Origin: Mariniflexile maritimum
Lineage (GTDB): Bacteria; Bacteroidota; Bacteroidia; Flavobacteriales; Flavobacteriaceae
DNA length: 64,000 nt
NCBI RefSeq assembly: GCF_009746565.1
Contig: NZ_WRPN01000008.1
Location: 116,561-180,560 of the forward strand
Reading direction: 5' to 3'
Shown: one piece after another, positions 1,544-30,038 of the stretch
Layout: each line of letters opens with the position of its first letter
Numbering within the stretch: the first letter of the stretch is position 1
Translations under genes and position numbers: made by a program
Notes under the pieces: model-generated
Told to the model about the DNA's origin: nothing
Seen by the model: only the letters and a program-made list of their open reading frames with translations
Database searches by the model: none

Positions 1544-1939
1544 TTAATTATTCTCAATATCACTAATATGATGCTCCAGTGCTTTTACTGAAATTTGAAT
1601 TTCCATAATTAACAGTGCCAACGATATAATCAATAAAATAAGGGCTGTACCAAACACCCAAACCGCTAGGGTATGTTGTTGGATGTAAATTAAAAACATG
1701 GTCAAAACACAAAGTAATAAACTGGAAATACCAAAAATTTGCATGCTTCGTGTTAGGTACAGGCGTTGTTTTATATTTATTATCTGCGCAATTAAAACCT
1801 TGTCTTTGTTTTTTTTGTATTTATTGTGTAAATCCCTTATAACGGCGGCATAGGCTAAAAACCGATTGGTATATGCCAGCATAATTAATGAGATTGCCGA
1901 AAATAACAAGGCTGGCGTGGTAAGTGTTAATTCTTCCAT
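1544..1939 (-). CDS. DUF2721 family membrane protein
   Basis: 131-residue integral membrane protein. It opens with TTPALLFSAISLIMLAYTNRFLAYAAVIRDLH, matching the start of the DUF2721 family (PALLF...ISLxMLAYTNRFL...IR). Three hydrophobic segments lie near residues 8-30, 68-90 and 95-115, with a basic cytoplasmic loop KYKKNKDKV between the first two. Function is unknown for the family. It sits between two sigma-factor modules but is separated from each (159 nt to the sigma gene on the left, 73 nt to the barrel gene on the right), so it may be a single-gene unit. Confidence 0.75.
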   Translation of the reverse strand: MEELTLTTPALLFSAISLIMLAYTNRFLAYAAVIRDLHNKYKKNKDKVLIAQIINIKQRLYLTRSMQIFGISSLLLCVLTMFLIYIQQHTLAVWVFGTALILLIISLALLIMEIQISVKALEHHISDIENN

Positions 1940-2012
1940 GTATTTAAAAGTTTACTCAAATTTAGTAACTTTAAATTTTAAGAAGACATATTTTATGCCA
2001 AATTATTTTCTA

Positions 2013-2909
2013 TTATAAATCAATTAGGTAACCTATGGATATATTAAAAAAACCGGTTTTGTTTAACTGGGGTTCCGTTTCAACACGAGAAGGGAGGTTA
2101 AAGTTATAGCCTAATTCAAAATCCCACGATTTGGTTACTAAGGTAAGCGGGATGTTGACTTGTGTGTTTAGTAAATCGAAAATATCGTTATAAATATATT
2201 CTACTGTGGTTATATCGCCAATAGTGTTTAGCTGCTCTAAAGCGGTAGTTTGTTGTGCTATTACAAAACTAATTTGTGGTCTTAGTTTTAATAAATAATC
2301 CTTTTTTTTTGCTAAAGTTAAATTGGCGTAGCTTCGTGATACCATTTGAAACGATTGATCTGTGCCGAATAAATAGGAAGTTGCCAGTTTTGTGCCTAGT
2401 GTTCGTTTTTTATTCCGTATGCCTAAACTTAAATCTATAGAGTTTGTAAATGTATCCCAACCATTGGCATAGAAATATCTGGTATATCCCACGTTGTAAT
2501 TAAAAATATTTTTTTTGCCAATGGTGTTGTAATAGCCTAGAGAAATATTGGTAAAATCCCAATTTGGACTAAAGGTTTCATAATAAATTCCAGAAACGCT
2601 TATGTTAAAACCTGAAGCAGTATAATAAGATAGTTGTGGCACTATATTAAATTGATCGATTCCAGAATCGCGACCCGTAAAAAAGGTATTGCTGTTAAAA
2701 GATACATTGGTGTATATAAAATTATTGGAGTTGAATGAATTTAAAATATCATTCATAAATTGTTGGTCGTTGAAAAAGAGTTCGTCAAGAAGCAAATCTA
2801 TATCATCTTCTTTGGGCTCTTGGGCATATAAATTAACAGGGGTTGCCGCTGTTACCAGCAGCAACCAAAGTGCTAAAATTTGTTTGTTATACAAGAGTTT
2901 CGTTTTCAT
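2013..2909 (-). CDS. putative outer-membrane beta-barrel protein
   Basis: 298 residues with an N-terminal signal peptide (ILALWLLLVTAATPVNLYAQ, cleavage after YAQ). An acidic stretch (EPKEDDIDLLLDELF) is followed by many alternating aromatic/polar strands such as NFIYTNVSFNSNTFF and IFNYNVGYTRYFYANG, ending in hydrophobic IGYLIDL. This pattern fits a beta-barrel of about 10-12 strands in the outer membrane. No named family was recognised. It is 17 nt downstream of the LTxxQ-like gene and likely the last gene of the sigma operon starting at 4637, so it may be a target of that sigma factor. Confidence 0.6.
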   Translation of the reverse strand: MKTKLLYNKQILALWLLLVTAATPVNLYAQEPKEDDIDLLLDELFFNDQQFMNDILNSFNSNNFIYTNVSFNSNTFFTGRDSGIDQFNIVPQLSYYTASGFNISVSGIYYETFSPNWDFTNISLGYYNTIGKKNIFNYNVGYTRYFYANGWDTFTNSIDLSLGIRNKKRTLGTKLATSYLFGTDQSFQMVSRSYANLTLAKKKDYLLKLRPQISFVIAQQTTALEQLNTIGDITTVEYIYNDIFDLLNTQVNIPLTLVTKSWDFELGYNFNLPSRVETEPQLNKTGFFNISIGYLIDL

Positions 2910-2926
2910 CTTTACAAGATAAGATT

Positions 2927-3463
2927 TTAACTTCCTCCTTTTCCATTACCTTTTCCGCCACCATTTCCAGTACGGGTTCCATCGTTATTTCTGGTTTTGT
3001 CTCCATTGTCTCCATTGCCTCCAAAGCCTTCACCATTTCTCATTTCACCTTGGCCAGATTGTTGTCGGGTTTGTTGCATGTGTTCTTGTAGCATTTGTCT
3101 TTGTTCTTGAGTGCACGATTCTCTAAACTGGTCTCTTAATTGTCGTAATTGGCGTTCTTGACTTTGAACCATTTGGTTTTGAGCATCGGTGAAGGTTTCT
3201 CGCAAACGCAATCTAATTTGTTCTTTGGTTTGGGTTTTGTCTTGCAAAATAGCTAACTGTTCGGCTGTTAAAGAGGCTTTGAGCAGTTCGCGGTTTTTTA
3301 ACATTAATTGGCGCTGTGTTTGCAACATGTCTTTTTGTTTAACGGTTAGTTGGTTCATAATAGCAGTGTAATCATCTTCTTGGGCAAAAAGAGTACTTCC
3401 TGTTGTTAAAAGCATTACTATACCAAATAATGCGATGACTGTTTTTAAGGATGTTGTTTTCAT
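2927..3463 (-). CDS. secreted LTxxQ-like (Spy/CpxP-type) helical protein
   Basis: Start chosen at MKTTSLKTVIALFG (an in-frame ATG 12 nt upstream at 3475 is the alternative); the signal peptide ends at LFAQ. The mature protein is almost entirely Gln/Arg-rich helix and contains SLTAEQLAILQ and CTQEQRQMLQ, two LTxxQ-type motifs spaced as in the Spy/CpxP periplasmic chaperone family. The C-terminal 35 residues are Gly/Asn-rich and probably disordered (GNGDNGDKTRNND). It lies downstream of a sigma/anti-sigma pair, mirroring the module at 1-1384. A role as periplasmic chaperone or sensor is inferred. Confidence 0.55.
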   Translation of the reverse strand: MKTTSLKTVIALFGIVMLLTTGSTLFAQEDDYTAIMNQLTVKQKDMLQTQRQLMLKNRELLKASLTAEQLAILQDKTQTKEQIRLRLRETFTDAQNQMVQSQERQLRQLRDQFRESCTQEQRQMLQEHMQQTRQQSGQGEMRNGEGFGGNGDNGDKTRNNDGTRTGNGGGKGNGKGGS

Positions 3464-19938: not shown

Positions 19939-22900
19939 CTATTTTCTCATCACCCTCACATTCATTTCTTCCACTTTTTTATCGGAAAGTAGTGATGGTG
20001 CGCCAAATAATAAATCGTCGCTGGTGCCTGTTTTTGGGAAAGCCATCACTTCACGAATGGACACTTTTTTCTCTAAAATCATCATCAACCTATCAACACC
20101 CCATGCAATACCGCCATGTGGTGGTGCGCCATAATGGAAGGCTTTGTACATGGTACCCACGCTTTTAAGCATTTCTTCCTTGGTGTAGCCCATGTTTTTG
20201 TAGGTAGCTTCCAGAATTTCGGGCTTGTGCGCCCGTATCGAGCCACCGCCAATTTCGTAACCATTTAATATTAAATCGTATTGTTGGGCTATGATGCTGC
20301 CAATTTCTTCGTCATTACCGCGCATGTGCTTTTCAATATCGTAAACAGCGGGCATCGAGAAGGGGTTATGGGTAAAGGTCCATCGGCCTTCATCTGTTTT
20401 TTCAAACATGGGGAAATCAATCACCCAGGCAGGACGCAATTCTTTAGGGTTGATTAAATGCAGCATTTTGCCAAGTTCTTGTCGAACAGCGTCCAAAGCT
20501 TTGTTGGCAGTGGCATAATCGGCAGCCGAGAAAAACACAATGTCGCCTACTTGAGCATCCGTGGTTTTGATGATACCAGCAGCAATGTCTTCACCTAAAA
20601 ATTTAATGATGGGCGACTGTAAATCGTCCTCATTCACAATAATATAGGCCAAACCACCCAAACCGTGTTGTTGTGCAGTTGCCGTTAATTTTTCAATTTG
20701 TCCTTTTGATAAGCGCTTGTTGCCTTGTTCTTTTGCGGAAACTTTGATGCATTTTACTATACCACCTTCTTCAATAGGTTTGCTAAATACTTGAAAAGTT
20801 GTGTCTTTTACAATGTTGGTAATGTCTTGAAGTTTTAATCCGAAACGCAAATCGGGGCGGTCGCAACCATAAAAATTCATGGCATCTTGGTAGGTAATGA
20901 CTTCAAACGGACGCAAAATCCATTTGTTGCCATATATTTTTTCAACCACCTCATTGAACATTTTCGTGTTCAAATAGATAATTTGTTGCATGCTGGCGTA
21001 GGCCATTTCCATATCCAATTGTGTGAATTCGGGTTGGCGGTCGCCACGGGAATCTTCATCCCTAAAGCAACGTGCAATCTGGAAATATTTTTCGTAACCC
21101 GAAACCATCAACATTTGTTTAAACTGTTGTGGTGCCTGGGGTAGCGTGTAAAATGCCCCGGGTTGTTTGCGCGTTGGTACAATAAACTCGCGTGCGCCTT
21201 CATCGGTACCGGCACTTAAAATGGGCGTTTCGATTTCAAGGAAATTTTGCGCGTCCAAAATATCGCGAAGTAGTTTGATTACCTTATGGCGGTTTACAAT
21301 AACACGGCGCACATCATCGTTCCTGTGGTCTAAAAATTTATATTGGAAACGCACGTTTTCATTGGTTTTGGTAGCGCGTTTTATTTCAAAGGGCAAGGTT
21401 CTGGAAAGGTTTAAAATATCCAGTTCATAAGCTTCCAATTCAATAGTGCCTGTTCTTAAGGCGGTGTTGTAATCGTCTTCCTTACGTTGCACAATGGTAC
21501 CTGTAACGGTGATGACCGACTCGGGTTTCAACTTCACCAGGTCATCTAAATTGGGAAACGATTCCCTACTTAAACGCACTTGGAAAATTTCGGTGCTCGA
21601 ATCGCGTAGGTCGATAAATATCAATTCACCATGATCGCGTACACTCGATACCCAACCGGCAAAGGTTACTTTTTGTGAAATGCTGGTTTCGGAAATGGCG
21701 CTAATTAAGTGCGTTCGGTATTCCTCTTTTATAACGATTGGAATTTGAGGAAGCACTTCTTCCTGTATTTTTACAGTTGGTTGTTGGGTTGTGTGTTGTT
21801 TAGTTATAATTTCGTTTTTAACCGTCGGTGTTTGGTCGCCAGCGGCAAGCATCTCCAAAATTCCTTCACGAATCACTTTCCCTGAAGCACCTTTTCCTAT
21901 AATTTCAATCACTTTTCCTACCAGAATACCTGCTTTTCCTTGGTTTCCTGCTTTAACCTCAAGGGTTACGGCTTCGTTTTCTGAAATAACTTTTGCGATG
22001 GCTTCCTGTATTTTCTCTTCGGAAATGGTATTCGCTTCAAAATACGTTTTGTAATCAAATGCGGCATCGGCCAATAACAATTTTATGGCGTTCTGTGCCA
22101 GTACGGGCGTTACTTTTTCATCCTTAAATAAGCTGAAAACAGTGATGAAATCTGAAATATGCTTGATGTTTGTATAATCTTCGGGCTTGATGTTGTTGGT
22201 AAGGGTTTTTGCCACAAACGAGGGTTCTTTGATTGCGTTGTTAATGGCAACAAAAGTTTCAGAGCGCAACGAATCGGCCGTAAAAAACTTAGCATCTTGT
22301 GGCAGCACACCGCCTTTAATCAAAATAGATTCTACCGCAAACGGCAAGGTGCTTAAATCAACAGCAATGGATTCAACAACATCTTTAATGCTTACAAAGG
22401 GCAAATCTGGTTCGGAAATAAAACGGTAATCGGCCTCAAACTCCTTTTTGCGCATGGTTTTGGTTTGCTTTAGGTCGGCATCCCATAAAACCGTGGTTTG
22501 TTCGGGTCTAAATTCCTTATGTTCAATGTAGTAGTTAAGTTGTTTTTCAACTTCTTCCTTAAGTGCATCGACCATAAACTTAAACGAGTTCAGGTTTTTG
22601 ATTTCGGTACGTGGGTTTAAATCGTAGCTTCTTTTTTTGCGTAGCGATACCGAAACATCCGATTTAAACTCGCCTTTTTCAAGATTTGCCTCGGAAATTT
22701 TTAAATTCTGGACAATACGCTGAATGTACTGTGCATAAGTTGAAGCATCTTCAATATGCCGAATGCAGGGTTCGGTTACAATTTCAATTAAGGGTACGCC
22801 CGCTTTGTTAAAATCGACCAACGAAACGGTTTTTTCGTGCATTAATTTGGCGGCATCTTCCTCAATATGTACTTGGGTTAAATTAACGGTAAACTGGGTG

Positions 22901-23274
22901 CCATCGTTTCTAAAGCAGGCTACTTCGCCATCGGGAATAATGGGGTTGTGGTACTGCGTAATTTGAATGTTTTTTGGGTTGTCTGGATATTCATAATGCT
23001 TTCTGTCCCAAGAAATTACTTCGTTTTGGAACGAAGAGTTTACCGCTTTCCCAAAAAAGATGGCTTTTTTAATGGCTTCTTTGTTAATGGCAGGTAAAAC
23101 GCCCATTTGCCCAGTACACACCGAACAGATGTTTTGGTTGGGGGTTTCTATTTCTTGGTTTGGGCAAGAACAAAATAATTTGGTTTTTGTATTTAACCGT
23201 ACATGGGTTTCCAGCCCGATTACCAACTCTAAATCGTGCGCTTTTAATGCGGCGTCTAATTGTTCTAGGTTCAT
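19939..23274 (-). CDS. gatB-aspS: GatB::AspS fusion (amidotransferase subunit B + aspartyl-tRNA synthetase)
   Basis: 1111-residue single open frame. Residues 1 to about 500 are a complete GatB: LELVIGLETHVRLNTKTKLFCSC, the CPNQ...CSVC zinc-type cysteines, the FKSDVSVSLR block, and the GatB/YqeY tail ending GKVIREGILEML. A linker of about 30 polar residues follows. From about 530 there is a complete class II AspRS: OB-fold anticodon domain with VSSVRDHGELIFIDLRD, motif 2 FRDEDSRGDRQPEFTQLDMEM, the bacterial GAD insert, and motif 3 HGGIAWGVDRLMMIL. The His in RDHG is the residue associated with non-discriminating AspRS (discriminating enzymes usually have Leu). Its start overlaps the gatA stop (TAATG). 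The fusion would charge tRNA(Asn) with Asp and amidate it in one complex. Translation is continuous, with no frameshift. Confidence 0.95.
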   Translation of the reverse strand: MNLEQLDAALKAHDLELVIGLETHVRLNTKTKLFCSCPNQEIETPNQNICSVCTGQMGVLPAINKEAIKKAIFFGKAVNSSFQNEVISWDRKHYEYPDNPKNIQITQYHNPIIPDGEVACFRNDGTQFTVNLTQVHIEEDAAKLMHEKTVSLVDFNKAGVPLIEIVTEPCIRHIEDASTYAQYIQRIVQNLKISEANLEKGEFKSDVSVSLRKKRSYDLNPRTEIKNLNSFKFMVDALKEEVEKQLNYYIEHKEFRPEQTTVLWDADLKQTKTMRKKEFEADYRFISEPDLPFVSIKDVVESIAVDLSTLPFAVESILIKGGVLPQDAKFFTADSLRSETFVAINNAIKEPSFVAKTLTNNIKPEDYTNIKHISDFITVFSLFKDEKVTPVLAQNAIKLLLADAAFDYKTYFEANTISEEKIQEAIAKVISENEAVTLEVKAGNQGKAGILVGKVIEIIGKGASGKVIREGILEMLAAGDQTPTVKNEIITKQHTTQQPTVKIQEEVLPQIPIVIKEEYRTHLISAISETSISQKVTFAGWVSSVRDHGELIFIDLRDSSTEIFQVRLSRESFPNLDDLVKLKPESVITVTGTIVQRKEDDYNTALRTGTIELEAYELDILNLSRTLPFEIKRATKTNENVRFQYKFLDHRNDDVRRVIVNRHKVIKLLRDILDAQNFLEIETPILSAGTDEGAREFIVPTRKQPGAFYTLPQAPQQFKQMLMVSGYEKYFQIARCFRDEDSRGDRQPEFTQLDMEMAYASMQQIIYLNTKMFNEVVEKIYGNKWILRPFEVITYQDAMNFYGCDRPDLRFGLKLQDITNIVKDTTFQVFSKPIEEGGIVKCIKVSAKEQGNKRLSKGQIEKLTATAQQHGLGGLAYIIVNEDDLQSPIIKFLGEDIAAGIIKTTDAQVGDIVFFSAADYATANKALDAVRQELGKMLHLINPKELRPAWVIDFPMFEKTDEGRWTFTHNPFSMPAVYDIEKHMRGNDEEIGSIIAQQYDLILNGYEIGGGSIRAHKPEILEATYKNMGYTKEEMLKSVGTMYKAFHYGAPPHGGIAWGVDRLMMILEKKVSIREVMAFPKTGTSDDLLFGAPSLLSDKKVEEMNVRVMRK

Positions 23275-24674
23275 TATAGCGTGTTTTTTAAGAAGTTAGC
23301 AAACTTCAAAACAAGTTCGTCGTTATTTTTTGCGGCTGTAATTTGTAAGCCCGTTTCGGTGCCTTGTGGCGTGGTTAACGTAGGCAATTGCCCCAAACTA
23401 AAGCCTACCGTGTAGGCATCGGATAGGTACATGGCGTGCGGGTTTTTTAGGCTCTCGCCAATGTTTGGTGGGGTAATGGGGGTAACCGGCGACAAAATAA
23501 TATCGACCTCTTTAAAGTCTTTTTCAAAATTTTCAGAAATGGCATCGCGTATCGCTAAGCTTTTCAGGTAGATTTCATCTGAAAAACCTTGGGATAACAC
23601 TTGGTTGCCCCCAATAATACGGCGTTTGGTTTCTTCTGAAAAATTTTCAGAACGTGTGATGGCATACGATTCTTTTAGGTTTTTATCGTCAATGCGGTTG
23701 CCGTAGTTTGAGCCATCCAATCGTGATAGGTTGGAAGCCGTTTCGGCCATCGCCAAAGTGTAATACGTTGACACAAGTATATCCGAATTAAAAAAATCAA
23801 GTGCTTTTATGGCGATGCCTTGGGCTTTTATTTTTTCAATGGCCGTTAAAAAATCGGTTTTTATTTTTGGGTCGATTGCCTCATTCTCAATAAAATTCTT
23901 GAAATAACCAACGGTTTTGATGTTGGAGTGATTTGATAAACTGGCATCGTTTATTTCTGCGGAAGCATAAGTGGTTTGGTCTTTTACGTCTTTACCGCTC
24001 ATCACATTCAGCAAAATGCAAATATCTTCAACCGACTTGGCAATAGGCCCTACACAATCCGTTGATGAAGCATACGCCATCAATCCGTAGCGCGAAATAC
24101 GGCCGTAAGTGGGCTTTAATCCATACACCCGGTTGTAGCCGGCAGGTTGGCGTACCGAACCGCCCGTATCGCCACCAATGGAAAATACGGTATAATCTTT
24201 AGCAACATTTACCGCAGAACCGCCACTGGAACCGCCACCTACCAGATTATGGTTTATGGCGTTTTTAACGGCACCAAAAATGGTGTTTTCACTGGATGAA
24301 CCGTGGCCAAAACTATCGCAATTTTCTTTAACAATAGGAATGGCGCCGGCATCCAACAGTTTTTGGATGGCCGTTGCGGTGTAGGCCGATTTGTAATTTT
24401 TTAACATATTTGAACTTGCCGTGGCGGTAGTGCCCTGAAGCATAAACACGTCTTTAATACCAAACGGGATGCCTTCCAATAACCCTATAGCTTCACCGTT
24501 TTTAATTTTTGTGTCCACTTTGGCAGCCAATTCTAAAGCTACATGCTCCAATAAGGAATTTACGGTGTTGTTGGAGTTGGTTTTTAGTAAACTTAATTTT
24601 TCTTGAATCAATCCTGTACAAGAAATTTCTTTGTCCAATAATTGTTGATGTATTTTTCGTATTTGAGACGCCAT
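23274..24674 (-). CDS. gatA: Asp/Glu-tRNA amidotransferase subunit A
   Basis: 466-residue amidase-signature protein. The catalytic Lys is in PFGIKDVFML (about residue 75), the cis-Ser in GGGSSGGSAVNVA and the nucleophile Ser in GGDTGGSVRQPAGYNRVYGLKPTYGRISRYGLMAYASS. It releases ammonia from Gln or Asn for transfer by GatB. It is the second gene of gatC-gatA-(gatB::aspS), 2 nt after gatC, and its stop overlaps the next start. Length is slightly shorter than typical (about 480). Confidence 0.95.
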   Translation of the reverse strand: MASQIRKIHQQLLDKEISCTGLIQEKLSLLKTNSNNTVNSLLEHVALELAAKVDTKIKNGEAIGLLEGIPFGIKDVFMLQGTTATASSNMLKNYKSAYTATAIQKLLDAGAIPIVKENCDSFGHGSSSENTIFGAVKNAINHNLVGGGSSGGSAVNVAKDYTVFSIGGDTGGSVRQPAGYNRVYGLKPTYGRISRYGLMAYASSTDCVGPIAKSVEDICILLNVMSGKDVKDQTTYASAEINDASLSNHSNIKTVGYFKNFIENEAIDPKIKTDFLTAIEKIKAQGIAIKALDFFNSDILVSTYYTLAMAETASNLSRLDGSNYGNRIDDKNLKESYAITRSENFSEETKRRIIGGNQVLSQGFSDEIYLKSLAIRDAISENFEKDFKEVDIILSPVTPITPPNIGESLKNPHAMYLSDAYTVGFSLGQLPTLTTPQGTETGLQITAAKNNDELVLKFANFLKNTL

Positions 24675-24676
24675 AA

Positions 24677-24946
24677 TTATTCTTCTATAACTTTTGAGAC
24701 TACCAAATAGCCGTTTTTTTCCTTTGGAAAATTTTCCATGATTAGTTGTTTTTCCAATGAAGAACTTTCAATCACTACATCGTCCCTTAAATCGTTTAAC
24801 GATACGCTGCTATTATGATTTATATTAAAAGAATTATTATTTGTTGGTTGTGCATTTTTAATCACCTCAAATAATTTGTTCACCGCCTCACTGGGTTGTG
24901 CACCTTTAATACTGGACAATACGTCCACGGTCATAATTTTACTCAT
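24677..24946 (-). CDS. gatC: amidotransferase subunit GatC, divergent
   Basis: 89 residues. The C-terminal half matches GatC (LNDLRDDVVIESSSLEKQLIMENFPKEKNGYLVVSKVIEE; compare the family LRDD...NAP...GYF.VPKVI). The N-terminal helix (VLSSIKGAQPSEAVNKLFEVI) is unlike usual GatC, and the middle has an Asn-rich stretch at residues 36-45 with six AAT codons in ten. GatC stabilises GatA and links it to GatB. It is the first structural gene after the attenuator. The assignment is secured by the operon and the C-terminal motif. Confidence 0.8.
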   Translation of the reverse strand: MSKIMTVDVLSSIKGAQPSEAVNKLFEVIKNAQPTNNNSFNINHNSSVSLNDLRDDVVIESSSLEKQLIMENFPKEKNGYLVVSKVIEE

Positions 24947-24964
24947 TTTCTGTGTTTTTAAATT

Positions 24965-24997
24965 AAAAAAAGCCCCCCAGTTTTAGGAAGGCTTTTT
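24965..24997 (-). terminator. attenuator terminator upstream of gatC
   Basis: On the minus strand GCCTTCC (24986-24992) pairs with GGGGGGC (24972-24978) across a 7-nt loop; two pairs are G-U. The stem is extended by five A-T pairs and followed by seven Ts (24965-24971). It lies 19 nt upstream of the gatC start and 30 nt downstream of the stop of the Asn-rich leader ORF, so it would stop transcription before the operon. Confidence 0.85.
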
Positions 24998-25045
24998 ATA
25001 TTTTTTAAAACAATAACCTTCCTGTCCTAACAATTAGGATTATTG
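24985..25045 (-). promoter_or_regulatory. alternative antiterminator and pause hairpins (Asn attenuator)
   Basis: Two mutually exclusive foldings are visible on the minus strand. (1) The leader segment CAATAATCCTAA (25034-25045) pairs with TTAGGA (25025-25030) and TTATTG (25011-25016), with the eight bases 25017-25024 bulged out. (2) AGGAAGGTT (25015-25023) pairs with AGCCTTCCT (24985-24993), nine pairs with one G-U, which consumes the 5' arm of the terminator. A ribosome stalled on Asn codons would break (1) and allow (2). A ribosome at the leader stop would cover AGGAAGG and allow the terminator. Confidence 0.75.
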
Positions 25046-25071
25046 AAATTAGTATTGTTATTGTTGGCCAT
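25027..25071 (-). CDS. Asn-rich leader peptide (MANNNNTNFNNPNC)
   Basis: 14-codon ORF with ATG 25069-25071 and TAG 25027-25029. Eight of 14 residues are Asn (AAC and AAT codons), in three clusters. It lies about 15-20 nt after a TATATTTG promoter box and just before the alternative hairpins and terminator of the gatC operon. This is the arrangement of ribosome-mediated attenuation leaders (trp, his, leu), but with asparagine as the sensed amino acid. It would be translated normally when Asn-tRNA is plentiful. Confidence 0.85.
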   Translation of the reverse strand: MANNNNTNFNNPNC

Positions 25072-25089
25072 AAATTTTTTATTGCGTTT

Positions 25090-25097
25090 CAAATATA
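25090..25097 (-). promoter_or_regulatory. -7 box of the gatCAB-aspS operon
   Basis: Minus-strand TATATTTG fits TAnnTTTG and lies 18 nt before the leader ATG. The -33 position has GTGC rather than TTTG, so the promoter may be modest or need an activator. Confidence 0.6.
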
Positions 25098-25519
25098 TGC
25101 AGAATATATATGCTACGCACTATTTTTTCTAATATGCTGTTTTGTTTTATCAAATTGTTAAAAAATGTAAAGTTTAGTTATAGGTTTTTTAAATAATTGG
25201 TTGTTATTGTTAATTTCAAAATTTTTTTGGTTTAAATATTCTAAAGATAAACCAAGATCCAATAATCAAAATGGCATCTGGCTAGAATTTTTTTGAAGAT
25301 TTTAGCAACTTTTCTTACTATTAAAAAGAAAGGGCAACCCTAAAATCAAACCGCTAGCGCGTTGTTATATGTTTTGTAAATTGATACGTGATAAAAAATG
25401 TGACCAAATGCCGTTTAAGGCGCTTTTTAGACGATTTAAGGCACTTTTGAGTAATTAACAACTGTTGATAATTTTAACTCATATTCGATAAAAAACTTTT
25501 AAAAAGCCTATTCGTTTTG
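25098..25519. other. intergenic region between gatCAB-aspS and gyrB
   Basis: About 420 nt of very AT-rich DNA between divergent transcription units. I see no ORF, tRNA or strong hairpin. An imperfect direct repeat is present near 25410-25450 (TTTAAGGCGCTTTT / TTTAAGGCACTTTT). Confidence 0.4.
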
Positions 25520-25527
25520 TATCTTTG
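25520..25527 (+). promoter_or_regulatory. -7 box of gyrB (TATCTTTG)
   Basis: TATCTTTG matches TAnnTTTG, 71 nt upstream of the gyrB ATG. An AT-rich stretch lies upstream without an exact TTG at 19 nt. Confidence 0.6.
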
Positions 25528-25598
25528 TTCGTATTCAAAAACGATGCGCTAAGCATCTTTTTTTGTGTTAATAAATACAATAAACAATATTAATTAAT

Positions 25599-27548
25599 AT
25601 GAGCGAACCAAAAGAAGAATTTAACAAGCACAATTATTCAGCAGATAGTATTCAGGCCCTTGAAGGTATGGAACACGTGCGCATGCGTCCATCCATGTAC
25701 ATAGGCGACATCGGTACCCGAGGTTTGCATCATTTGGTGTACGAGGTAGTGGATAACTCCATCGACGAGGCGCTGGCTGGACATTGTAACAATATTACCG
25801 TAATCATTAATGAAGATAATTCCATTACCACTGAAGATGACGGTCGTGGTATTCCGGTAGATTTACATAAAAAAGAAGGTGTTTCCGCTCTGGAGGTTGT
25901 CATGACCAAAATTGGGGCCGGAGGTAAGTTCGATAAAGATTCCTATAAAGTTTCCGGTGGGTTGCATGGAGTAGGTGTAAGTTGTGTGAATGCATTGTCA
26001 GAACATTTAAGGGCCACCGTTTACCGCGATGGTAAAGTGTATGAGCAAGAATATGAACGTGGTAAAGCCATGTATCCCGTGAAGCAAATTGGCGAGTCCG
26101 ATAAACGCGGAACCACGGTAACCTTTAAACCAGATCCCACCATTTTTACGCAAACCTTAGAGTATAGTTATGATACTTTAGCGAGCAGAATGCGCGAATT
26201 GGCGTTCCTTAATAAAGGGATTACCATCCATCTGGTTGATAAGCGCAACAAAAAGGATGATGGCACTTTTGAAGGTGAAACGTTCCATTCCACAGAGGGT
26301 TTAAAAGAATTTATAAAATATTTAGATGGCAACCGAGAGCCTTTAATGAAAGATGTTATTGCTTTTGAAGGCGAAAAAAATGGCGTGCCCGTTGAAGTGG
26401 CCATGATTTATAATACCTCCTATGCCGAAAATTTACATTCGTATGTAAATAACATCAATACCCACGAAGGCGGAACGCATTTGGCAGGTTTCCGTCGTGG
26501 ATTGACCATGACCTTAAAGAAATATGCCGATGAATCGGGGTTGTTAAAAAACTTAAAGTTTGAAATCGCTGGCGATGATTTCCGTGAAGGATTAACGGCT
26601 ATCATTTCCGTAAAAGTGGCCGAACCTCAATTTGAAGGGCAAACAAAAACAAAATTGGGTAACCGCGAAGTATCCGCCTCAGTAAGTCAGGCCGTATCGG
26701 AAATGCTCACCGATTATCTAGAAGAACACCCCGACGATGCAAAAACCATTGTGCAAAAAGTGATGCTGGCCGCACAAGCGCGTCATGCAGCCCAAAAAGC
26801 ACGCGAAATGGTTCAGCGCAAAACCGTGATGAGTATTGGAGGCCTACCCGGAAAATTAAGCGATTGCTCTGAACAAGACCCCTCAAAATGTGAAGTGTTC
26901 CTAGTTGAGGGCGATTCGGCGGGCGGTACCGCAAAACAAGGTCGCGATAGGGCGTTTCAAGCCATTCTTCCATTGCGTGGAAAAATATTGAATGTTGAAA
27001 AAGCGATGACCCATAAAGTATTTGAAAACGAAGAGATTAAAAATATTTTTACAGCACTTGGGGTTACCATTGGCACTGAGGAAGATAGTAAAGCATTAAA
27101 CCTTTCAAAACTACGATACCATAAAGTAGTGATAATGTGTGATGCCGATATTGATGGTAGCCACATTGCCACCTTAATACTTACCTTCTTCTTTAGGTAT
27201 ATGCGCGAATTGATTGAAAACGGGCATATCTACATCGCTACGCCACCGTTGTATCTCGTAAAAAAAGGCCAGAAAAAAGCCTATGCATGGACCGATAAAG
27301 AGCGCGACGACATTGCCGAGGAATTTGGCGGCAGCGTAGCCATTCAGCGCTACAAAGGTCTTGGTGAAATGAATGCTGAACAACTTTGGGATACCACCAT
27401 GAACCCTGAATTTAGAACCATGCGCTTAGTACAAATAGACAATGGTACGGAAGCCGATAGGATTTTCTCGATGTTAATGGGTGATGAAGTACCGCCCCGT
27501 AGGGATTTTATTGAGAAAAATGCTATTTATGCTAATATTGACGCGTAA
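25599..27548 (+). CDS. gyrB: DNA gyrase subunit B
   Basis: 649-residue type IIA topoisomerase ATPase subunit. The GHKL ATP-binding motifs are EVVDNSIDEALAG, DDGRGIPVD and KVSGGLHGVGVSCVNALS. A transducer domain follows, then TOPRIM with EVFLVEGDSAGGTAKQGRDR and MCDADIDGSHI, and the C-terminal block RYKGLGEMNAEQLWDTTMNP. Length and domain order fit GyrB of Bacteroidota (ParE is shorter and differs in the C-terminal block). It is monocistronic, with a strong terminator about 95 nt downstream. Confidence 0.97.
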   Translation: MSEPKEEFNKHNYSADSIQALEGMEHVRMRPSMYIGDIGTRGLHHLVYEVVDNSIDEALAGHCNNITVIINEDNSITTEDDGRGIPVDLHKKEGVSALEVVMTKIGAGGKFDKDSYKVSGGLHGVGVSCVNALSEHLRATVYRDGKVYEQEYERGKAMYPVKQIGESDKRGTTVTFKPDPTIFTQTLEYSYDTLASRMRELAFLNKGITIHLVDKRNKKDDGTFEGETFHSTEGLKEFIKYLDGNREPLMKDVIAFEGEKNGVPVEVAMIYNTSYAENLHSYVNNINTHEGGTHLAGFRRGLTMTLKKYADESGLLKNLKFEIAGDDFREGLTAIISVKVAEPQFEGQTKTKLGNREVSASVSQAVSEMLTDYLEEHPDDAKTIVQKVMLAAQARHAAQKAREMVQRKTVMSIGGLPGKLSDCSEQDPSKCEVFLVEGDSAGGTAKQGRDRAFQAILPLRGKILNVEKAMTHKVFENEEIKNIFTALGVTIGTEEDSKALNLSKLRYHKVVIMCDADIDGSHIATLILTFFFRYMRELIENGHIYIATPPLYLVKKGQKKAYAWTDKERDDIAEEFGGSVAIQRYKGLGEMNAEQLWDTTMNPEFRTMRLVQIDNGTEADRIFSMLMGDEVPPRRDFIEKNAIYANIDA

Positions 27549-27642
27549 TCGTTTAACGATTATTATGTTATAAAGTTACTAAGTTATTAGGTTATTAAGC
27601 TTTCCGACCAACTAACCAATAACCTACATAACCCAATATCCG

Positions 27643-27679
27643 AAATAACCCTGAAGACCGTCTTCAGGGTTATTTTTTT
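27643..27679 (+). terminator. intrinsic terminator of gyrB
   Basis: A perfect 15-bp stem (27643-27657 with 27661-27675) around a CCG loop, followed by a run of T. The gene after it is on the same strand, so it isolates gyrB. Confidence 0.95.
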
Positions 27680-27742
27680 AGCATAAACATCGTTAAAACG
27701 CAAAAAATAACGACAAAATGTTTTTTCGTATGTTTTTTTGTA

Positions 27743-27750
27743 TATATTTG
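27743..27750 (+). promoter_or_regulatory. -7 box (TATATTTG) of the DUF6588-like gene
   Basis: TATATTTG 21 nt upstream of ATG 27772, within a T-rich region. No exact TTG is present at 19-21 nt upstream. Confidence 0.5.
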
Positions 27751-27771
27751 CTGTAACCAAATTTTATATAA

Positions 27772-28788
27772 ATGAAAAAGATATCCCTATTCCTATTATT
27801 TATTGTTGTAACACAATTATCAAAGGCTCAAGAATTAGAAAATATTTTACTGGCGGCAAGAGGCGATGCCAATAAGCTTACCGAGAGTTATTTAAACCCA
27901 GTTATGAAAGGCTTAACATTCGGTGTAAACAGTGGTTGGTACCATACGGCGGCAGTTCATAAAAAATTCGGTTTTGATATTTCAATAGGCTTAAATGCTT
28001 CCATGGCTCCCGAAAAAGATGAGCTAATAACGTTTGCCAACCTAGGGTTAACAAATATAACATCTTCATCTGCAACAAGTCCAACCTTAGTTGGTTCTGG
28101 AGATGGTGCAACCATGAACGTAAATGCCACCGTACAAGGTCAATCGGTTACGGCAACTTTCGATATGCCTTCAGGTGTAAAAGATGATTTGCCTTTAAGC
28201 GCGGTACCTTCACCGGCAGTTCAAGTAAGTGTAGGGTTGCCCTATAAGTTTGATGTGATGCTTCGTTTGGTGCCAGAAGTTGGTAGTGATGATGTAAAAG
28301 GGAAATTGTTGGGCATTGGCCTTAAAAAAGAAATAACCAGTATTTTTGGGCCATTAGACAAATTACCACTGCATGTTTCGGTATTAGCGGCCTATACCTC
28401 CATGGATGTAAACTATTACATGGATGGAACAGAAATTCCGGGAAGCAACCAAGATGCCGCACTTAAATTAAATGCATATACCGCCCAGGCAATAGCATCC
28501 TTAAATTTTCCTATTATAAATTTTTACGGAGGCATTGGTTATAGTGCAGGAAAATCGTCATTAAAAATGATGGGAACTTATGAACTGGAATACAATACCG
28601 GTCAACCGGCACCCAATGATACGATTTCCGAAACGATTACAGATCCATTAGATTTGGACTTTAAAACCAGCGGTATCAAGGCCACATTGGGAACCCGATT
28701 AAGTTTGGGATTCTTTAAAATTTTTGCCGATTATACCTTGCAGGAATATAACACCCTATCAGCGGGTATCGCATTTAGTTTCAGATAA
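27772..28788 (+). CDS. DUF6588-like outer-membrane protein
   Basis: 338 residues with a signal peptide ending LSKAQ. The N-terminal part ELENILLAARGDANKLTESYLNPVMKGLTFGVNSGWYHTA and the C-terminal strands (RLSLGFFKIFADYTLQEYNTLSAGIAFSFR, ending in Arg after Phe) suggest an outer-membrane beta-barrel. The start matches the DUF6588 family as I remember it. The mid-section is rich in strand-forming residues. Function unknown. It has its own promoter box and a terminator after it. Confidence 0.7.
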   Translation: MKKISLFLLFIVVTQLSKAQELENILLAARGDANKLTESYLNPVMKGLTFGVNSGWYHTAAVHKKFGFDISIGLNASMAPEKDELITFANLGLTNITSSSATSPTLVGSGDGATMNVNATVQGQSVTATFDMPSGVKDDLPLSAVPSPAVQVSVGLPYKFDVMLRLVPEVGSDDVKGKLLGIGLKKEITSIFGPLDKLPLHVSVLAAYTSMDVNYYMDGTEIPGSNQDAALKLNAYTAQAIASLNFPIINFYGGIGYSAGKSSLKMMGTYELEYNTGQPAPNDTISETITDPLDLDFKTSGIKATLGTRLSLGFFKIFADYTLQEYNTLSAGIAFSFR

Positions 28789-28853
28789 TAATTATAAATT
28801 TTTTTCATAGTAATAATTGTTTTAGTTTTAGTTAAATTAGTGTTTAGTTATTT

Positions 28854-28885
28854 AAAAAGTGCGAGATTAAATCTGGCACTTTTTT
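28854..28885 (+). terminator. intrinsic terminator after the DUF6588-like gene
   Basis: Stem AAAAAGTGC / GCACTTTTT around a 13-nt loop, ending in T6. It lies 66 nt after the stop and before mdh. Confidence 0.8.
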
Positions 28886-29029
28886 CATTTAAAACATATA
28901 AATTTGTAGTTTTGCCTGATTAAAATCATATAATGTGAACTTTAATAAGCCGAAATTCGCAACATAAAAAAAAAGAGGTGCTAAAAACGAGCTTCAATAT
29001 AAAAACAAAAACATTTTAAACATAAAAAC

Positions 29030-29950
29030 ATGAAAGTAACAGTAGTAGGTGCCGGAGCAGTAGGCGCAAGTTGTGCAGAGTATATTGCCATTAAAAATTT
29101 TGCTTCAGAAGTTGTTTTGTTGGACATTAAGGAAGGGTATGCCGAAGGTAAAGCCATGGATTTAATGCAAACAGCTTCATTAAATGCTTTTGATACCAAA
29201 ATTACAGGTATTACAAACGATTATAGCAAAACCGCCAATAGCGATGTGTGTGTGATTACCTCTGGTATTCCTCGTAAACCGGGAATGACCCGCGAAGAAT
29301 TGATTGGTATAAACGCAGGCATTGTTAAAGATGTTTCTTCAAATTTGATTAAATTTTCGCCAAACACCATCATCATTGTGGTAAGTAACCCTATGGATAC
29401 CATGGCTTACTTAGTGCATAAATCTACCAACTTACCAAAAAACAAAATCATTGGTATGGGTGGTGCTTTAGATTCTGCACGTTTTAAATATAGATTGGCA
29501 GAGGCTTTGGGCGGCCCCATTAGCGATGTAGATGGCATGGTAATTGGCGGCCATAGCGATACTGGCATGATTCCGTTAACACGTTTGGCTACTAGAAATG
29601 GTGTGCCTGTAACCGAATTTTTAAGCGAAGACCGGTTAAACCAAGTAAAGGAAGACACAAAAGTAGGTGGCGCGACCCTTACCAAATTGTTAGGTACTTC
29701 GGCTTGGTATGCACCTGGTGCAGCGGTTTCAGCCATGGTTCAGGCCATTGCTTGCGATACAAAAAAAGTGTTTCCTTGCTCTGTAATGTTAGAGGGCGAA
29801 TATGGTTTTAACGATATTTGTCTTGGTGTTCCGGTAATTTTAGGCAAAAACGGTATTGAAGAAATTGTATCCGTTAAATTGAACGATGCCGAAAAAGCCA
29901 ACATGCTTGAAAGTGCAGAAGGTGTTAAGGCGGTAAACGAATTGTTATAA
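29030..29950 (+). CDS. mdh: malate dehydrogenase
   Basis: 306-residue LDH-like NAD-dependent malate dehydrogenase of the citric acid cycle. The NAD-binding motif is VVGAGAVGASCAEYIA, substrate-binding Arg residues are in SGIPRKPGMTREEL, and the catalytic His is in MVIGGHSDTGMIPL. Length is normal. Promoter-like TAAATTTG and TAGTTTTG lie about 115-130 nt upstream, leaving a long untranslated leader. A hairpin follows the stop. Confidence 0.97.
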   Translation: MKVTVVGAGAVGASCAEYIAIKNFASEVVLLDIKEGYAEGKAMDLMQTASLNAFDTKITGITNDYSKTANSDVCVITSGIPRKPGMTREELIGINAGIVKDVSSNLIKFSPNTIIIVVSNPMDTMAYLVHKSTNLPKNKIIGMGGALDSARFKYRLAEALGGPISDVDGMVIGGHSDTGMIPLTRLATRNGVPVTEFLSEDRLNQVKEDTKVGGATLTKLLGTSAWYAPGAAVSAMVQAIACDTKKVFPCSVMLEGEYGFNDICLGVPVILGKNGIEEIVSVKLNDAEKANMLESAEGVKAVNELL

Positions 29951-29993
29951 AAAGTGCCTAAATTGCATTCAAGTTGCAAGTAAATGAATGTTA

Positions 29994-30038
29994 TAAGTGC
30001 CTAAGGTTGAAAGCGTAACTTCCAACTTTAGGCACTTT
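29994..30038 (+). terminator. probable terminator hairpin after mdh
   Basis: Long inverted repeat (TAAGTGCCTAAGGTTG with CAACTTTAGGCACTTTA) 43 nt after mdh. The following T-run is weak, so termination may be partial. Confidence 0.6.

Follow-up and report, generated by a model that had tools for sequence, protein, structure and literature searches.

Directly before gatC, on the minus strand of the analysed DNA (a 64-kb stretch of Mariniflexile maritimum, hereafter the window), lies a leader that is very probably a ribosome-mediated transcription attenuator, as comparison with relatives and folding models suggest; it would open the operon gatC-gatA-gatB::aspS when Asn-tRNA(Asn) is scarce, this operon being probably the main route of the cell to asparagine (Asn). 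A broader reading, which we consider likely, holds that a group of Flavobacteriaceae has dropped asparagine synthetase, makes Asn only on tRNA via GatB-AspRS and keeps this synthesis under the control of a ribosome counting Asn codons, in what would be the first leader-peptide attenuator for Asn or for a transamidation operon, independent of the T-box of Firmicutes.

Architecture of the Leader

The leader and the operon behind it comprise the following elements.

25097-25090, minus strand: promoter-like -7 box TATATTTG (TAnnTTTG), from a pattern match
25071-25027, minus strand: leader ORF MANNNNTNFNNPNC, 8 Asn in 14 codons, with ATG at 25071 and UAG stop at 25029-25027, from ORF reading
25057-25065, minus strand: arm 1, the Asn codons AAC AAU AAC, pairing with 25009-25017 in the minimum-energy fold
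25025-25039, minus strand: small hairpin UCCUAA/UUAGGA spanning the Pro codon and the stop (25034-25039/25025-25030), from folding
25015-25023, minus strand: arm 2 AGGAAGGUU, 5' arm of the antiterminator, from folding
25009-25017, minus strand: GUUAUUGUU, pairing partner of the Asn codons, from folding
24985-24997, minus strand: arm 3, common to the antiterminator (24985-24993) and the terminator (24986-24997), from folding
24967-24978, minus strand: arm 4, 3' arm of the terminator, from folding and alignment
24971-24965, minus strand: T-run (T7) of the intrinsic terminator, from the sequence
24946-24677, minus strand: gatC, 89 aa, Pfam GatC 23.7 bits (cut-off 23)
24674-23274, minus strand: gatA, 466 aa, Pfam Amidase 364.9 bits
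23274-19939, minus strand: gatB::aspS fusion, 1111 aa, from family models

TAnnTTTG is the -7 consensus of Bacteroidota, and both the box and the 14-codon ORF with its eight Asn codons, which a sequence-only reading of the same DNA had reported, are present in the window; the gap of 19 nt that it gave between terminator and gatC is 18 nt when counted from the T-run to the gatC ATG. MANNNNTNFNNPNC is the sole ATG ORF of 8-30 codons with at least 35% Asn on both strands of the window, and in 30 x 64 kb of order-1 random sequence a single ORF had at least 50% Asn.

The terminator folds as 12 bp (24986-24997/24967-24978) at -15.9 kcal/mol; its 7-bp core (24986-24992/24972-24978) and the T7 had been placed correctly, and A:U pairs lengthen the stem. 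Folding also reproduced the nine pairs claimed for the antiterminator (25015-25023/24985-24993), the fold containing them reaching -11.5 kcal/mol, and because arm 3 is used by both structures the two are predicted to exclude each other, as had been proposed. The GGAAGG of arm 2 begins 4 nt past the stop codon. A protector hairpin had been described as well, of which the inner stem (25034-25039/25025-25030) was recovered, but the outer stem (25040-25045/25011-25016) is the best fold only if the Asn codons upstream of it are omitted; in the whole-leader fold, the Asn codons 25065-25057 pair with 25017-25009 and UUUC 25048-25045 with 25021-25018. The notion that the protector wins by energy in untranslated RNA was not borne out by folding, and a protector role for this hairpin is plausible. 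Folding of the entire leader gives -27 kcal/mol (z = -3.40), a value equalled by 0/200 shuffles, and the 1:2 part of the window leader alone gives z = -1.40, with 16/200 shuffles equally good. Compared with synonymous leaders, the 1:2 part is mildly more stable across the 44 leaders described below (median z -0.93, z < -1 in 21/44), too weak a support for 1:2 to be retained as the main brake.

The Operon as a Probable Route to Asparagine

Family models support the operon identity gatC-gatA-(gatB::aspS) assigned earlier. Against the NCBIfam models gatC scores 24 bits, under the cut-off of 47.1, and gatA 423.8 bits, under the cut-off of 481.1; the fusion comprises GatB (residues 14-477) and a bacterial-type AspRS with a GAD domain (518-1111). 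The same genome encodes AsnRS, GlnRS, GluRS and a separate AspRS (582 aa, RDKG); the presence of GlnRS was the reason for not assigning GatCAB to Gln-tRNA formation. Neither AsnA nor a housekeeping AsnB was found in the genome. One AsnB-like protein (632 aa), which by eye has flippase-like, polymerase-like and glycosyltransferase-like neighbours (polysaccharide-type genes), exceeds the cut-off of the asparagine synthase model TIGR01536, and since it passes this general model it may contribute to Asn synthesis. With AsnRS encoded and no AsnA or housekeeping AsnB found, this operon probably serves as the (main) route of the cell to Asn. Compared with the earlier claim that it makes Asn-tRNA(Asn), its role is probably wider than tRNA charging.

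The motif RDHG, whose histidine matters for AspRS specificity, stands in the anticodon-binding part of the AspRS in 80/80 fusion loci (the best 80 matches), and also in 4wj3 and 4rmf (both named Asp/Asn) and in 4o2d (named Aspartate--tRNA ligase); RDLG is found in 6hhv (named Aspartate--tRNA(Asp) ligase) and in 1efw from T. thermophilus. By this one residue the fused AspRS is a candidate non-discriminating enzyme. The acceptor stem of tRNA-Asn, read by eye in the one tRNA-Asn given by a non-exhaustive pattern search, has U1-A72, the pair needed by bacterial GatCAB as a passage of PMC4206432 states.

In 149 genomes sampled evenly across the family, a full-length GatB::AspRS fusion was found in 23, AsnA in 10 and canonical AsnB in 109, where canonical denotes a best E < 1e-90, a cut that we set in the gap from 4e-99 to 1.1e-33. 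G124, whose contig stops within gatA past the leader, was tallied as fusion-less. AsnRS exceeds its cut-off in 148/149. AsnA or canonical AsnB is encoded in 0/23 fusion genomes versus 115/126 of the others (Fisher p = 4.6e-19, uncorrected for kinship): fusion and asparagine synthetase are mutually exclusive among the 149 genomes. Ten genomes (G022, G041, G055, G058, G089, G092, G098, G112, G116 and G136), in which neither a full fusion nor AsnA nor canonical AsnB was found, may be incomplete assemblies, Asn auxotrophs or users of another route.

Recurrence of the Leader among Relatives

Relatives were taken as the best 80 matches of the gatB::aspS protein among genome contigs, of which more exist. 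Three of them (L058, L059 and L087), whose contigs end before the gatC start, were left out, and the 77 with a readable gatC start plus the window gave 78 upstream regions. The leader, comprising Asn-rich ORF, terminator and antiterminator, is present in 44 of the 78 and absent in 34, and the features first read from a single sequence thus recur in related Flavobacteriaceae. It occurs in at least 11 named genera (Confluentibacter, Mariniflexile, Flaviramulus, Algibacter, Aestuariibaculum, Tamlana, Gaetbulibacter, Flavivirga, Seonamhaeicola, Polaribacter and Aestuariivivens); leader-less members are also found in Algibacter, Tamlana, Polaribacter and Flaviramulus, and among the matches listed, all 12 loci named Flavobacterium whose gatC start could be read are without the leader. 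L069, labelled Lentimicrobium, groups by its GatA with the Flavobacterium rows and may be a contig wrongly binned in a metagenome.

A covariance model built from the leaders gave 13 strong matches (at least 100 bits) in the 149 family genomes, 13/13 of them directly before gatC. Eleven fusion genomes are without a model match: ten are readable, all of them lacking the leader, and the contig of the eleventh ends too early. The genus of the window has four of six genomes matching the model (window included) and two that do not. The comparison with relatives that the sequence-only reading had called for came out in its favour. A scan of the phylum (395 genomes, 171 genera, stricter filters) gave a high score in the window's own genome only, and two weak matches. 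On a tree of the 78 GatA proteins the leader trait requires 9 changes against a shuffled mean of 25.7, 4 of the 9 being forced by starred branches in a bootstrap that had not settled; the trait is therefore clustered yet often lost or moved. The window sits in a supported GatA set of 19 rows with a leader in every row. Given its absence in 34/78 upstream regions, in the ten readable fusion genomes and in two of the six genomes of the genus, the leader is dispensable.

Hairpins of this kind are common, as is evident from 13 weak matches of the model (44-50 bits) in 12 other family genomes, which by eye are plain terminators except for one. The leader could be the ordinary terminator of a neighbouring gene next to a chance small ORF, and a same-strand ORF of at least 100 aa does end 129-351 nt before the leader in 15/43 relatives. 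This we regard as extremely unlikely: the neighbour in the window, gyrB-like by eye, lies on the opposite strand and points away, 28/43 relatives have no same-strand ORF of at least 100 aa within 1.7 kb upstream (some sequences being shorter), and ORF and hairpins are kept together in 44 copies.

The one exception among the weak matches, L115 1501-1620 (G043:C11:9733-9852), has a Trp-type leader MKNNNTHIGWWKLRNALSQ with a terminator that immediately precedes a TrpE-like gene (1628-3031; TIGR00564 428.7 bits, under the cut-off of 517.7), and resembles a trp attenuator of another family genome. Many of the 34 leaderless loci (including L133-L141 and L143) have a promoter-like AAACTTTCGTAATTTTGC or similar directly before gatC, and by eye the AAACTTTCGTAATTTTGC-type and leader-type stretches may be two alternative start regions for one operon. 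Variation was also observed between terminator and gatC, where L035 and L039 have an extra inverted repeat (GAGAC...GTCTC type) and L040 a similar one; in L042 the T-run of the leader ends 183 nt from gatC.

Signs of Translation and of Pairing

All 44 leaders have a start codon (43 ATG, 1 GTG), an in-frame UAG stop and 7-10 Asn among 14-15 codons. Codons -9 to -12 are Asn in 169/176 cases, in a mix of AAT and AAC. The ORF is 48 nt in 32 leaders and 45 nt in 12, and the distance from the stop to the end of the T-run takes nine lengths; the ORF varies by whole codons and the post-stop part by single bases. TAnnTTTG precedes the leader start by 10-19 nt in 43/44, versus 3/43 in the preceding 60 nt, the one exception being L042, with too little upstream DNA in its sequence, and arm 2 begins 3-5 nt after the stop in 44/44. 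Mean pairwise identity within the ORF is 0.83, and between stop and T-run 0.80, compared with 0.46, 0.57 and 0.53 in three flanks (40/44 rows; L035, L039, L040 and L042 were omitted for their long or displaced spacers).

Conservation of this kind might also be expected of a structured 5' UTR free of ribosomes, in which the apparent Asn codons are kept as one side of a helix and another ligand or the speed of RNA polymerase sets read-through. The Asn codons do pair with GUUAUUGUU, and the leaders use TTC in 42/44 and CCT in 43/44, whereas the window gatA and gatB::aspS use them for 17/71 Phe and 9/58 Pro codons, an excess that fits a constraint by pairing. We nevertheless hold this explanation to be improbable, since such an RNA would account neither for a start codon with an in-frame UAG in every copy, nor for an ORF of just two lengths ahead of a part with nine, nor for the regular spacing of promoter box, start, stop and arm 2. 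A third explanation is a functional Asn-rich micropeptide that acts in trans, the hairpins being secondary; the FNNP core of the peptide is conserved in nearly all leaders and would agree with it. Here too the evidence points elsewhere, as the conserved non-Asn codons (UUC, CCU) fall on paired bases and the last residue is highly variable (position -1 has 14 different codons in the 44 leaders), and we judge a micropeptide to be very unlikely.

The pairings themselves are well kept. In the terminator-state structure 93.6% of cells are paired (41-64% with partners slid), in the antiterminator 93.4% (31-67% with partners slid), in the arm 1 helix 93.4% (44 rows, with one of the nine pairs broken in 16) and in the small UCCUAA/UUAGGA hairpin 94.3%. 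Eight of the nine antiterminator pairs are intact in 43-44 of the 44 rows and the outermost in 19, for which reason covariation of the flanking base of arm 2 with arm 3 is not claimed. The loop-closing pair of the terminator shows 16 double changes. Most paired columns are nearly invariant, however, and when the 3' letters of the terminator-state structure were shuffled, the observed values were reached in 333/500 (percentage paired) and 359/500 (covariation score); for the antiterminator the corresponding figures are 8/500 and 6/500, to be read with the relatedness of the rows in mind.

Ribosome Position and the Proposed Switch

Each leader was folded to one base past the arm 3 core with a blocked segment representing the ribosome, whose footprint is the number of nucleotides covered downstream of the A-site codon, and a two-state criterion asked for an antiterminator probability of at least 0.8 (mean over Asn codons) and at most 0.2 at the stop. 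Ribosomes cover about 9-10 nt downstream. With a 9-nt footprint the antiterminator reached at least 0.80 (mean over Asn codons) and at most 0.11 at the stop in 44/44 leaders; with 12 nt, 43/44 leaders behaved as two-state switches, and with 6 nt only 12/44 did. The earlier expectation that a stalled ribosome favours the antiterminator is reproduced by the fold model at 9 nt in every leader, and at 6 nt in this minority. The model switches between a ribosome at the stop and one at the Asn codons because arm 2 lies 3-5 nt past the stop, and it bears out that arm 2 would be covered when the ribosome has reached the stop codon. In a snapshot without a ribosome, taken before arm 4 is made, the antiterminator is favoured (median 1.00, minimum 0.29); energy therefore does not explain termination of untranslated RNA, the fate of which would depend on folding kinetics.

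Folding thus predicts two outcomes. While the ribosome waits at one of the Asn codons, arm 2 would stay free to capture arm 3, permitting read-through; once it has reached the stop codon, it would cover arm 2, so that arm 3 pairs with arm 4 and transcription ends. Scarce Asn-tRNA(Asn) would in this way open gatC-gatA-gatB::aspS; the fused AspRS would form Asp-tRNA(Asn), which GatCAB would amidate to Asn-tRNA(Asn). The switch would be product feedback on the Asn supply, sensed as Asn-tRNA(Asn) from both the operon route and AsnRS. The direction originally suggested, with low Asn-tRNA(Asn) opening the operon and high closing it, is the likely one in view of the comparison and the fold model.

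If this is true, the molecule measured, Asn-tRNA(Asn), is the operon's own product in a direct feedback loop, and Asn joins the amino acids that are sensed via leader-peptide attenuation. It would also lend comparative support to leader-peptide attenuation in Bacteroidota, where translation often begins without Shine-Dalgarno sites. A GatCAB that is seemingly redundant next to AsnRS and GlnRS would gain a purpose as a replacement for asparagine synthetase, and the patchiness of the switch, even inside one genus, would offer natural pairs for gauging the worth of Asn feedback.

Comparison with Known Systems

The leader-peptide attenuators of trp, his, leu, thr and phe are known from Enterobacteria, and the pheST leader acts on a tRNA-charging operon. 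The leader described here shares with them a short ORF packed with codons for the regulated amino acid, as well as alternative hairpins and an intrinsic terminator ahead of the first gene, and by this architecture it may be counted among leader-peptide attenuators. It differs from them in its amino acid (Asn), in governing the tRNA-dependent Asn pathway and in its Bacteroidota host, and kinship with them is unsupported by the Rfam scores: over 20000-30000 no match reached its gathering score, and up to E = 1 there were three (Thr_leader, Phe_leader and rli42). Membership in Thr_leader (RF00506) or Phe_leader (RF01859) was rejected at 27.8 and 27.4 bits versus a gathering score of 55. The mechanism is apparently that of classical attenuation, and the amino acid, the target and the lineage appear to be new.

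T-box control of the tRNA-dependent Asn pathway was reportedly described in Clostridium acetobutylicum in a 2012 study. That system and the present leader govern the same pathway via the charging state of tRNA; the T-box acts by direct tRNA binding, independently of translation, whereas the leader is predicted to work through translation. A T-box identity of the leader was rejected, no T-box being among the Rfam matches up to E = 1 over 20000-30000. The statement that no attenuator on gatCAB has been described must accordingly be narrowed given the Clostridium case, and stands for leader peptides: neither an Asn leader peptide nor a gatCAB leader-peptide attenuator was found in the titles and abstract openings of the open-licence literature. 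In a 2008 survey, the relevant passage reports no T-boxes before amidotransferase genes in species without a Gln- or Asn-tRNA ligase (PMC2494555).

Within the same bacterial family, leader-peptide attenuation was proposed before amino-acid biosynthesis operons of Flavobacterium psychrophilum, with pheA, hisG, ftsY, acsA, alaS and rimP among the examples (PMC9723704). The examples named are other genes, the term gatC is absent from the main text of that article, whose Table S7 has 64 structured 5' regions, and the Flavobacterium loci compared here (12, among the matches listed) are without the leader. Also, short ORFs reminiscent of leader-peptide attenuation are mentioned in B. thetaiotaomicron in a passage of PMC7366714.

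With regard to the pathway, tRNA-dependent Asn synthesis alongside AsnRS is described in PMC4206432, in the sections on this subject, for Bdellovibrio, Deinococcus and Thermus, a type that resembles the present genome in having GatCAB, AsnRS and GlnRS, no AsnA or AsnB, and a tRNA-Asn with U1-A72. According to the same sections, a second AspRS occurs in 5/18 genomes with AsnRS, GlnRS and GatCAB and without Asn synthetase, all of them Deinococcus-Thermus; there the second AspRS is archaeal-type, whereas here it is bacterial-type and fused to GatB.
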